Shown: piece after piece, positions 52,456-63,371 of the stretch
Numbering within the stretch: position 1 is the first letter of the stretch
How the letters are laid out: every line of letters begins with the position of its first letter
Assembly (NCBI RefSeq): GCF_900215535.1
Contig: NZ_OCND01000005.1
Location: 241,501-305,500 of the forward strand
Reading direction: 5' to 3'
DNA: 64,000 nt
From: Pseudoxanthomonas wuyuanensis
GTDB taxonomy: Bacteria > Pseudomonadota > Gammaproteobacteria > Xanthomonadales > Xanthomonadaceae
Translations under genes and position numbers: made by a program
The notes under the pieces: model-generated
What the model saw: the letters and a program-made list of their open reading frames with translations, nothing else
Database searches by the model: none
Told to the model about the DNA's origin: nothing

Positions 52456-54345
52456 CTACGCCACCCGGCTGCGCCTTGCGCGCTCCAGGTGCACCAGCAG
52501 CAGCGAGATCGCCGCCGGCGTCATGCCGGGGATGCGTTGGGCCTGGCCCACCGTTTGCGGACGCACGCGTTCGAGCTTCTGCTGCACTTCGGCCGACAGG
52601 CCGCGCACGCCGGCGTAGTCGAACGCTTCGGGAATCGGCGTGCTCTCATGGCGCTGCTGGCGTTCGATTTCGCCGCGCTGGCGGTCCAGGTAGCCGGCGT
52701 ACTTGATGCCGATCTCCACCTGCTCGGCCACTTTGGCATCGGCCACGCCCGGCCCCAGCGCCGGCACCTGCATCAGCTTGGCGTAGTCCAGTTCCGGCCG
52801 CTTGATCAGGTCCAGCACGTTGGTTTCGCGGCTGACCGCCACGCCCAGCGCCGCTTCCAGTTCGCGGCCCAGCGCGTTGGCAGGCGTGGCCCACAGCGCG
52901 CGCAGGCGGCCGGTTTCCTGCGCCACCGCTTCGCGCTTGGCTTCGAAGCTGGCCCAGCGCGCATCATCGACCAGTCCCAGCGAACGGCCGATAGCGGTCA
53001 GGCGCGCGTCGGCATTGTCCTCGCGCAGCTGCAACCGGTATTCGGCGCGGCTGGTGAACATGCGGTAGGGCTCGCTGGTCCCGTGGGTGATCAGGTCGTC
53101 TATCAGCACGCCGATATAGGCTTGATCGCGGCGCGGCGACCATGGCTCTTCCTGCTGTACGAAGCGCGCGGCGTTGAGGCCGGCGATCAGGCCCTGCGCG
53201 GCCGCTTCCTCGTAGCCGGTGGTGCCGTTGATCTGGCCGGCGAAGAACAGCCCGGACACCGCCTTGGTTTCCAGCGAGGACTTCAGCCCGCGCGGATCGA
53301 AGAAGTCGTATTCGATGGCGTAGCCTGGCCGGGTGATGTGCGCGTTTTCCATGCCGCGGATGCTGCGCACCAGATCCAGCTGCACATCGAACGGCAGCGA
53401 AGTGGAGATGCCATTGGGGTAGATCTCGGCCACGTCCAGGCCTTCGGGCTCGACGAAGATCTGGTGGCTGGCCTTTTCGGCGAAGCGCACCACCTTGTCT
53501 TCGATGGACGGGCAGTAGCGCGGGCCGATGCCTTCGATCTGGCCGCTGTACAGCGGCGAACGGTGCAGCGCGTTGCGGATGATCTCGTGGGTACGCTCGC
53601 TGGTATGGGTGATCCAGCACGAGACCTGGCGCGGATGAGCGGCCGCATCGCCGATGAACGACATCACCGGCAACGGGCTGTCGCCCGGTTGTTCCTCCAT
53701 CACCGAATAGTCCAGCGAACGGCCATCGATGCGCGGCGGCGTGCCGGTCTTCAGCCGGTCGACCACGAACAGCCCTTCGCGCAGCCTGTGCGCCAGCGCG
53801 GTGGCCGGCGGGTCGCCGGCGCGGCCGGCCGCGTACTGGGTCTCGCCGACATGGATCTTGCCGGCCAGGAAGGTGCCGGCGGTCAGCACCACCGCCGGTG
53901 CCTCGAAGCGCAGCCCGGTCTGGGTGATGGCGCCGCGTACGCTGCCGTTGTCGATGATCAGATCGTCGACCGCGGCCTGGAAGAGGGTCAGATTGGGCTG
54001 CGATTCCACCGCCGTGCGGATCGCGCTGCGGTACAGCGCACGGTCGGCCTGGCAACGGGTCGCACGTACCGCCGGCCCCTTGGAAGCATTGAGCGTGCGC
54101 CACTGGATGCCGGCACGGTCGGCCGCCCACGCCATCGCCCCGCCCAGTGCATCGATTTCCTTGACCAGATGGCCCTTGCCGATGCCACCGATGGCCGGGT
54201 TGCAGCTCATCGCGCCCACGGTTTCCACGTTGTGGGTCAGCAGCAACGTGCGTGCGCCGGCGCGCGCGGCCGCCAGCGCGGCCTCGGTGCCGGCATGGCC
54301 GCCGCCGATGATGATCACTTGGTACTGGTGGAAAGACGGGTTCAT
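52456..54345 (-). CDS. mnmG: tRNA uridine-5-carboxymethylaminomethyl synthesis enzyme MnmG (GidA)
   Basis: A 629-residue FAD enzyme that, with MnmE, modifies wobble U34 of several tRNAs. The dinucleotide fold is [19 protein letters not shown] (about residues 10-28). [18 protein letters not shown] and [16 protein letters not shown] are MnmG signatures. The C-terminal helical domain includes LKRPELDY-type sequence. The start at 54345 gives the standard length; 54354 would add three residues. mnmE is not in the window. Confidence 0.96.
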
Positions 54346-54432
54346 GGCAGTCATTGGATGGAAACGGCGGGCAGCGCCCGGCTGCGTGGTTCGGTAGTGG
54401 GCAAGCCGGCGAAGCCGCACAACCGGCAAAGT

Positions 54433-54448
54433 TGGCACGCTTTCTGCT
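54433..54448 (+). promoter_or_regulatory. Sigma-54 (RpoN) promoter upstream of a short terminated transcript
   Basis: TGGCACG-CTTT-CTGCT matches the consensus TGGCACG-N4-TTGCW at 11 of 12 positions, with GG (54434-54435) and GC (54446-54447) exactly ten bases apart. No protein gene follows on this strand for over 1 kb. A strong intrinsic terminator does, 90 bases on. An imperfect dyad (TGCGtggTTCG at 54383-54393, CGAAgcCGCA at 54410-54419) lies upstream, where an enhancer-binding activator could sit. Confidence 0.65.
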
Positions 54449-54458
54449 TCACCCAGCT

Positions 54459-54571
54459 GGCACCCGATGTGGCAAGCGACCAGGGGCGCGGGTTGGAATT
54501 GGAACAGGGGCCAGCCAGGCGCACGTCGGGGATGCCGGGGCCGGTAGTCGGGGGACTGCCGGCCCTTTTTT
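54459..54571 (+). ncRNA. Candidate sigma-54-dependent small RNA
   Basis: From the expected start about 12 bases after the -12 GC to the terminator T-run is about 113 bases with no coding frame of merit. The segment is G-rich, with ttggaattggaacagggg near 54493-54510. That gives GGA motifs in potentially unpaired regions, as in CsrA/RsmA-binding RNAs, though loops were not computed. A G-rich RNA could also pair with C-rich sequence. Promoter and terminator on the same strand, with nothing else between, are the main support. Confidence 0.5.
54538..54571 (+). terminator. Rho-independent terminator of the candidate small RNA
   Basis: A 12-pair stem (54538-54549 with 54554-54565, one G-T pair) closes a GGGG loop and is followed by six Ts (54566-54571). 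On the minus strand there is no T-run, so it works only for plus-strand transcripts, although both flanking genes are on the minus strand. Confidence 0.85.
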
Positions 54572-54599
54572 ATGCCCGCAAGAATACCGCGCCACCCGT

Positions 54600-54627
54600 A
54601 AAAAAGCCCGGCATTGCCGGGCTTTTG
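54600..54627. terminator. Bidirectional Rho-independent terminator
   Basis: AAAAAGCCCGGC then att then GCCGGGCTTTT: a perfect 7-pair GC stem with A/T tracts on both sides, so it can end transcripts from either direction. It separates the two candidate small RNAs. On the minus strand it lies between the region upstream and mnmG, so mnmG must be transcribed from a promoter to its left or by read-through. Confidence 0.9.
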
Positions 54628-54697
54628 TCTGGCGCCGACGTCCGGCGGGGCCGGAACAGGGGGGATCCAGATTTCCCCACCGAACGTCGACATTGAA
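54600..54697 (-). ncRNA. Candidate small RNA convergent with the sigma-54 one
   Basis: On the minus strand a possible promoter (TTGCGT at 54733-54728, 18-base spacer, GACAAT at 54709-54704) precedes about 97 bases ending at the bidirectional terminator. The RNA would fold GGGGA/TCCCC around 54661-54678 and TCCGGC-ccc-GCCGGA around 54640-54655, leaving C-rich loops. C-rich loops are used by some Xanthomonas small RNAs to pair with G-rich ribosome sites; homology to any of them has not been tested. It could instead be the leader of an mnmG transcript. Confidence 0.4.
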
Positions 54698-54703
54698 GCT
54701 TGT

Positions 54704-54733
54704 ATTGTCCAGTTACGTCAGAAAGCGACGCAA
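54704..54733 (-). promoter_or_regulatory. Candidate sigma-70 promoter of the minus-strand small RNA
   Basis: TTGCGT (-35, four of six) and GACAAT (-10, four of six) are 18 bases apart on the minus strand. TTGACC at 54741-54736 is a better -35 but has no matching -10 at normal spacing. The 54734-54869 remainder of the gap shows no gene. Confidence 0.3.
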
Positions 54734-54869
54734 CCGGTCAACTCCTGCTAGCTAGCTTGCGACTGCCGGCGCCGCAAAGCAATAGCCAGGATTCGAGGCC
54801 CCTTCCGTTAGGTTTGGCGCTGTGTCCAGGCCGCCCTTGAGCGCGCCAACAGGCCGTTTTCCATGGCCT

Positions 54870-55448
54870 CTAGGGCTCCTGAACGCGTATTCCGCGCGGA
54901 TTGCTGCTCCGCGGCTGGCTCCGCACCGCCGGTTGCGAGCGCTCCACCCGGGCGGGCGGTGCCTGGCGGGGCGCCGGAGATGTCGGTGGCCGGACCTCGC
55001 TGCGCACCCGCGGCGCGCTGGGCGCCGGGGTAACCCGATTCTCATGGCGTGGCGGAATCATCACCTGCCCGGATTCGCGCCAGGCGCCATTGGTGGGGTC
55101 GCGCCACGGCGGCGCCCGGTTGCCGCTGCCGGTGGGCGGCTTGGGCGGTTTCTGCCCGTGGCCGGGGTCGTGCGGACGCGGTGGCCGGTAACGCGGCGGG
55201 TAGTACGGGTAATACGGGTTGTAGTGCCCGTAGTACGGGTAACGGGAGTAGCCGTAGTAGCCATAGCCGGACCCGATATAGATGCTGGTGCCGGGGTAGC
55301 CATAGCCGCCGTAGTAGGGGCCGTAATACTCGGTCGTCGGACGACCGTGGTAGTAACCGCCAGGCGCGCTGCCGCCGGCGTAGTCATAGGTCGCGCAACC
55401 GCTCAGGGCGGTGGCGAACACGGCGGCCAGCAGGACTTTCTTGTTCAT
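54870..55448 (-). CDS. Tyr/Gly/Pro-rich lipoprotein of unknown function
   Basis: A 192-residue lipoprotein: MNKKVLLAAVFATALSGC has the lipobox LSGC at residue 18. The mature N-terminal half is highly repetitive in Tyr, Gly and Pro (YYGPYYGGYGYPG, YGYYGYSRYPYYGHY). The C-terminal half is Pro/Arg-rich and basic. This low-complexity composition suggests an extended surface or cell-wall-associated protein. A ggggg-tag ribosome site precedes the ATG. No named family is recognised. Confidence 0.8.
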   Translation of the reverse strand: MNKKVLLAAVFATALSGCATYDYAGGSAPGGYYHGRPTTEYYGPYYGGYGYPGTSIYIGSGYGYYGYSRYPYYGHYNPYYPYYPPRYRPPRPHDPGHGQKPPKPPTGSGNRAPPWRDPTNGAWRESGQVMIPPRHENRVTPAPSAPRVRSEVRPPTSPAPRQAPPARVERSQPAVRSQPRSSNPRGIRVQEP

Positions 55449-63345: not shown

Positions 63346-63371
63346 CGCCTTTCGGAACAGGGGCCTGGCGG

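Follow-up and report, generated by a model that had tools for sequence, protein, structure and literature searches.

The small RNAs GlmY/GlmZ and Qrr are sigma-54-dependent, and we know of few sRNAs under such control. CrcZ and CrcY of Pseudomonas and Azotobacter are likewise made from an RpoN-dependent promoter, in a CbrB-dependent manner, and antagonise a post-transcriptional regulator (passages of PMC8657755). They counteract Hfq-Crc, whereas the partner that we propose for the small RNA asX1 is itself an RNA, and the two are likened by description and not by sequence. GlmY acts as a decoy (PMC7073468), which is also the role proposed here for asX1, but its target is the protein RapZ, and this likeness again is one of description. 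Moreover, one locus has been described that encodes both a trans-acting sRNA and an antagonist RNA (PMC8687705), an arrangement similar to the one proposed here for asX1 and a second structured RNA, which we call RNA2. The antagonist in that system is cis-encoded, whereas asX1 and RNA2 occupy non-overlapping positions in the window (the whole 64-kb stretch of DNA that was analysed) and match each other between loops. Finally, RNA2 resembles sX13 (RF02232) in its C-rich apical loop with CCCCUG, and mRNAs repressed by sX13, a C-rich-loop sRNA, tend to bear G-rich motifs (passages of PMC3771888). RNA2 differs from sX13 in being a single hairpin followed by a terminator, and sX13 sits elsewhere in the genome.

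The small RNA at this locus is the known Rfam family asX1 (RF02235). A covariance-model search placed it at 54461-54572 on the plus strand with 94.7 bits (gathering score 70), the sole Rfam match to reach gathering score across the 64-kb window, and the locus belongs over its full length to this family, which is seen across the bacterial family. The score above gathering is accompanied by the consensus fold and by compensatory changes. A preliminary description had proposed an RNA of 113 nt, which fits 54459-54571 and agrees with the Rfam extent to within two bases, on a strand without a protein gene; indeed, no protein gene is evident on the plus strand at asX1, and mnmG lies on the minus strand in divergent orientation. 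Its statement that no such RNA had been described at this locus was wrong for the RNA, since it is already listed as asX1. The founding paper is reportedly Schmidtke 2012, which is also cited in PMC4652430. In the open-licence papers searched, we found no statement on sigma-54 control of asX1 or on a convergent partner. Passages of PMC3224663, PMC12316311, PMC8657755, PMC10433810, PMC7694677 and PMC3744752 likewise hold none on its sigma-54 control. According to passages of PMC4652430, asX1 is one of 12 ncRNAs, out of 23 from X. euvesicatoria 85-10, that every X. campestris genome studied there was found to contain, and asX1 was expressed in one strain, Xanthomonas campestris pv. raphani; in Xylella, asX1 is annotated with cellular RNA-seq reads (passages of PMC12189769).

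With the covariance model, asX1 was matched in 36/38 genomes within the genus and in 123/397 genomes across the order, 109 of the latter above the cut-off. We take this genus to be Pseudoxanthomonas, as some of its loci share sequence with records of P. spadix, P. composti, P. sacheonensis and P. sangjuensis. Genus and order combined gave 143 genomes, and 138 loci from 30 genera were used (G206, G273, G294, G299 and G316 are absent from these loci). A wider search beyond the Rfam matches, using a model built on 40 sequences and a lax limit of E 0.05, detected asX1 in 125 of 128 genomes of the window's own family and in three genomes from two other families; outside the own family the models rarely detect it. 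A weak match (L261 in G127, E 0.005) has a -24 element without GG in an own-family genome in which rpoN is present. A search of plasmid sequences returned no match, and one assembly titled Bacillus subtilis (L172) bears an asX1 locus with its promoter, probably through contamination.

The predicted fold of asX1 is a three-way junction (54463-54530, plus strand) closed by helix P1 (54463-54473 with 54519-54530), followed by an intrinsic terminator (54537-54571, plus strand), and its z-score is -4.1. Compensatory changes were seen in 19/27 pairs of a 40-sequence alignment, whose covariation score was reached by 0/500 shuffles, and 10/11 pairs of P1 are changed on both sides, which bears out the earlier proposal of an sRNA. 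The dereplication behind this alignment omitted L127, L129 and L131, and L128 and L130 are also absent from it, while counts over 138 loci keep all five. The terminator (54537-54566) has 13 pairs, one more than the 12 given in the preliminary description, a GGGG loop at 54550-54553 and, as that description had it, six T (54566-54571); our own terminator scan detected it in 121/138 loci. Hairpin P3 (54491-54516, plus strand) carries the loop GGAACAGGGG at 54501-54510, of which AACAGGG is largely exposed in the predicted fold and is kept in 132/138 loci. Five or more consecutive G in the 3' part, mostly those of the terminator loop, were likewise found in 132/138.

We consider it very probable, from comparison of genomes, that asX1 is a sigma-54-dependent sRNA. 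The predicted -24/-12 promoter element, TTGGCACGCTTTCTGC, lies at 54432-54447 on the plus strand, with GG at 54434-54435 and GC at 54446-54447 and a spacing of ten bases, so that the GG-N10-GC promoter of the preliminary description stands. The positions which that description gave for RNA, promoter and terminator are correct to one or two bases. The motif by itself proves nothing, because near matches are no commoner than chance: TGGCACG-N5-TGC has one exact match in the whole window, and with at most one mismatch it has 9 matches there against 14.8 expected from shuffles. The motif in isolation was dropped as evidence on these counts and, as near matches are frequent by chance in the window, the case for the promoter therefore rests on comparison. 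Conservation among relatives had been proposed as a check, and TGGC and TGC stand in register in 138/138 asX1 loci; the C of GC lies 13-16 bases ahead of the start of the Rfam match in every one of them (14 in the window). Among 95 dereplicated loci, the TGGC/TGC positions carry about 2 bits, as compared with at most about 0.3 bits at -140 to -9, and a best score of at least 12 was reached at the true promoter place in 88/138 loci versus 13/8496 control windows from the same loci. Because the promoter lies outside the Rfam asX1 model, the loci were not selected for it. A scan of named genomes used a DNA pattern of two asX1 core strings without the promoter and gave at least 80 loci; among the matches listed, the element is present in 67/67 loci with enough upstream DNA (L201, whose upstream DNA is too short, is excluded) and in 1/12 clearly unrelated chance matches, the one being a poor TGGC-N8-TGC in L214. 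We regard the sigma-54 reading of this element as strongly supported, and asX1 would accordingly depend on RpoN in the cell. Two rpoN matches are present in the genome of the window, and rpoN was found in 35/35 genomes tested, several of them without detected asX1, so that loss of asX1 does not track loss of rpoN.

A second conserved hairpin beyond asX1 first showed in outgroup loci. In the window, it belongs to RNA2, a structured RNA at 54602-54691 on the strand opposite to asX1 and converging on it, which consists of a hairpin (54634-54691, minus strand) whose C-rich loop spans ten bases (loop region GGAUCCCCCCUGUUCC at 54653-54668), followed by a terminator-like hairpin with a T-run (54602-54626, minus strand) that could also serve the plus strand. 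The string GGAACAGGGG occurs downstream within 400 bases in 133/138 asX1 loci and within 500 in two more; a third copy in the window, at 63354-63363, is probably there by chance. Counts for RNA2 refer to 135 loci, from which L058 (one mismatch), L059 and L072 are excluded, RNA2 being present in another arrangement in the genomes of the latter two. The fold z-score for 54599-54697 is -6.1, and compensatory change was found in 13/16 pairs. RNA2 was assigned to the minus strand because G-U cells outnumber C-A cells in its stem there by 128 to 8, the reverse strand having a poorer fold and 39 C-A cells, and because our own scan found the terminator on the minus strand in 102/135 loci versus 4/135 for the plus-strand control; the same counts rule out an RNA2 on the plus strand. 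A standard terminator scanner did not list the RNA2 terminator of the window. Upstream of RNA2 lies a conserved GAC-N7-GTC-N7-GAC element (54716-54741, minus strand), possibly a promoter or operator, which in the form GAC-N6to8-GTC-N5to8-GAC was found in 121/135 loci against 0.7 expected in shuffles. As elements, RNA2 and the asX1 promoter are both well supported by these comparisons, and RNA2 would be transcribed as a separate RNA.

RNA2 has the C-rich apical loop and, in 102/135 loci, the terminator of an sX13-like sRNA, yet no match to the sX13 family model RF02232 was reported at RNA2 in the window, and no Rfam family reached gathering score for RNA2 in the window or at other loci. Rows below gathering score that fall on RNA2 in the window (Leu_leader with 24.6 bits against 50, asX2 with 22.2 against 70) were taken as chance. 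A covariance model detected RNA2, at one match per row listed, in 222/348 genomes of the order, including, among the rows listed, 103/104 of the own family; in a sample of the class it matched 5/321 genomes, of which four belong to the own family and the fifth, with a weak match (E 0.009), lies outside it. The loop is present as a single copy in the window's genome. RNA2 also occurs without detected asX1 in G279 and G370; at the former (L265) some 60 bases separate it from the mnmG N-terminus. Searches of open-licence papers with its loop letters and in general terms did not retrieve RNA2, and it would constitute a new RNA family kept through much of the order. By description, RNA2 is similar to sRNA-Xoo4 of Xanthomonas oryzae pv. 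oryzae, an abundant single-hairpin sRNA reported to lack a similar sequence in Xylella (passages of PMC3039613), and sRNA-Xoo4 might be RNA2.

The C-rich loop CCCCUGUUCC of RNA2 is complementary to the asX1 loop. In 131/135 loci the longest perfect complement between the two RNAs is that of the P3 loop with the RNA2 loop, over 9-11 bases; L026, L104, L128 and L130 are without this match. With one locus per genus (30 in all), the mean complement is 9.4, whereas shuffled RNA2 gives 7.1 and 200 shuffle means reach 7.6 at most, and the predicted duplex of the P3 and RNA2 loops has -19.1 kcal/mol, as compared with a mean of -8.5 and a best value of -19.7 among 1000 shuffled loops. This complementarity is partly built in, because the string GGAACAGGGG served to locate RNA2 in the first place; the covariance model refound RNA2 without that string, yet was built from loci located with it. 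sX13 was found in 237/397 genomes of the order, and none of the misses listed belongs to the own family. Its C-rich loops, taken from four genomes, resemble the RNA2 loop, two of three containing CCCCUG, and yield -7.4 to -10.8 kcal/mol with P3, within the shuffled range, and -9.3 to -12.5 with the asX1 terminator loop. We treat sX13 as a lead only, since its pairing with P3 is not better than that of many shuffled loops.

We propose that an active enhancer-binding protein would act on RpoN polymerase waiting at the -24/-12 element and thereby start transcription of asX1; this structured RNA, about 112 nt long, would end at its own terminator and accumulate. Its exposed G-rich loops, that of P3 and the GGGG of the terminator, would then pair loop-to-loop with C-rich-loop sRNAs, first with RNA2, convergent next door and with a match of 9-10 bases, and possibly with sX13, for which the match is weaker. 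Such pairing would remove C-rich-loop sRNAs from G-rich sites on mRNAs and make asX1 a sigma-54-controlled antagonist. We give this model as a whole, in which asX1 made by sigma-54 pairs with and antagonises RNA2 and perhaps sX13, a probability of roughly one half. Pairing of asX1 with RNA2 in the cell and its outcome are hypotheses, and the antagonist role itself we advance tentatively. A further extension appears rather doubtful, namely that the two RNAs are a linked pair throughout the order, with RNA2 repressing G-rich mRNA sites and asX1 serving as its sigma-54-switched decoy. In that case asX1 would damp sX13 as well, and a single sigma-54 signal would release all GGGG-marked mRNAs together. 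What looks new here is the sigma-54 promoter of asX1, kept in nearly all relatives, together with a conserved convergent RNA2 that has a complementary loop. The sigma-54 network includes nitrogen assimilation, pili, flagella and plant pathogenicity among its functions (passages of PMC3224663). If asX1 is under sigma-54 control throughout Xanthomonadaceae, it would tie this network to post-transcriptional control in genera that live with plants or are opportunistic. The asX1/RNA2 pair could be an answer to how the C-rich-loop sRNAs of this group are switched off, in the form of a testable control circuit.

The same promoter evidence would serve equally well if sigma-54-dependent asX1 acted directly on mRNAs through its P3 loop, the likeness to RNA2 then reflecting shared targets or a common origin. 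The exposure of AACAGGG and its retention are in line with such an activity, whereas no complement found nearby is better conserved than RNA2, which lies on the opposite strand, and we regard direct action on mRNAs as unlikely. In the genome of the window, ACAGGGG lies 4-10 bases ahead of an ATG 22 times versus 7 times for the reversed control; several of the 22 sites have no convincing gene behind them. At two places in this genome (L301 and L309), ACAGGGG stands immediately before a start codon, and the complementarity to the RNA2 loop goes beyond this string. One of the two gene products is a polysaccharide-export protein (Poly_export), and the other is presumably a PgaD-like protein. The gene gpsA was ruled out as a conserved RNA2 target, as its site is conserved in 2 of the 29 loci counted from 30 genomes searched.

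Alternatively, the locus could act in cis on mnmG, RNA2 being a leader with an attenuator and asX1 its antisense regulator. The gene mnmG (gidA; 52456-54345, minus strand, the start codon being inferred as likely the ATG at 54345) lies divergently beside asX1 in 136/138 loci, and RNA2 is on the mnmG strand and upstream of it, as such a leader would be. On the other hand, the terminator that follows RNA2 in most loci, the lack of overlap between RNA2 and asX1 in the window and the rearranged order in L059 speak against action in cis, which we consider quite improbable. In that rearranged locus (G259), mnmG is on the asX1 strand, with RNA2 upstream on that strand too; in L060, mnmG is absent within the locus. 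In support of the proposed sigma-54 model, a survey upstream of mnmG found a sigma-54-like site divergent from mnmG in 18/19 genomes of family f12 and 3/3 of family f3; it found one in 0/3 genomes from three other families (one covering 191 bases only) and in 1/4 own-family genomes that were chosen because asX1 had been missed in them. Of 30 genomes taken, one gave no mnmG, and about one of the other 29 would be expected from shuffles to have a site. CAGGGG follows the site in 19/21 of the f12 and f3 genomes, and 12/29 genomes have a second sigma-54-like site farther along. In L267 (726-911, minus strand) and at similar places in f12, this second site lies about 430 bases past the first, and a small ORF (61 aa in L267, MNNVFDFQPVYPRHDL...) follows it in several f12 genomes. 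In the window, 54870-55448 on the minus strand encodes a 192-aa Tyr/Gly/Pro-rich, lipoprotein-like ORF without a Pfam match.

The GGA motifs of asX1 raise the possibility that it sequesters RsmA/CsrA, as the preliminary description had suggested. At least two GGA are present in each of the 138 copies, mostly three or four, and RsmU, an RsmA-sequestering sRNA, is known in Xanthomonas (passages of PMC7694677). Yet GGA arises by composition in a G-rich RNA, and the P3-loop GGA sits within TTGGAAC, a string missing from 27/138 loci while AACAGGG persists in 132, so that of the suggestion the presence of the motifs stands and RsmA/CsrA binding is not favoured; we take sequestration to be distinctly improbable.

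It is very improbable that the -24/-12 element is conserved for some other function while a different promoter drives asX1: although we found no conserved enhancer site, the invariant bases coincide with the sigma-54 consensus, the distance from the C of GC to the RNA start is constrained in all loci, and no sigma-70 promoter-like site was found within 54300-54900, a region that covers RNA2 as well as asX1. As to the activator in the proposed sigma-54 circuit, no conserved column and no conserved activator site were found upstream of the promoter element in the 95 dereplicated loci, and patterns for NtrC, PilR, GlrR, LuxO, FleQ and CbrB were not enriched upstream of asX1. Upstream dyads are GC-rich and were rejected as activator sites, since we read them as due to the mnmG coding sequence. 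A perfect CRP/Clp-like TGTGA-N6-TCACA occurs in 11/15 loci of genus g5 (Xanthomonas) versus 1/123 others and is therefore not a general activator site. Within L031-L044 and L051, this CRP/Clp-like site is centred 60 bases ahead of the asX1 start, where it could serve either asX1 or mnmG.
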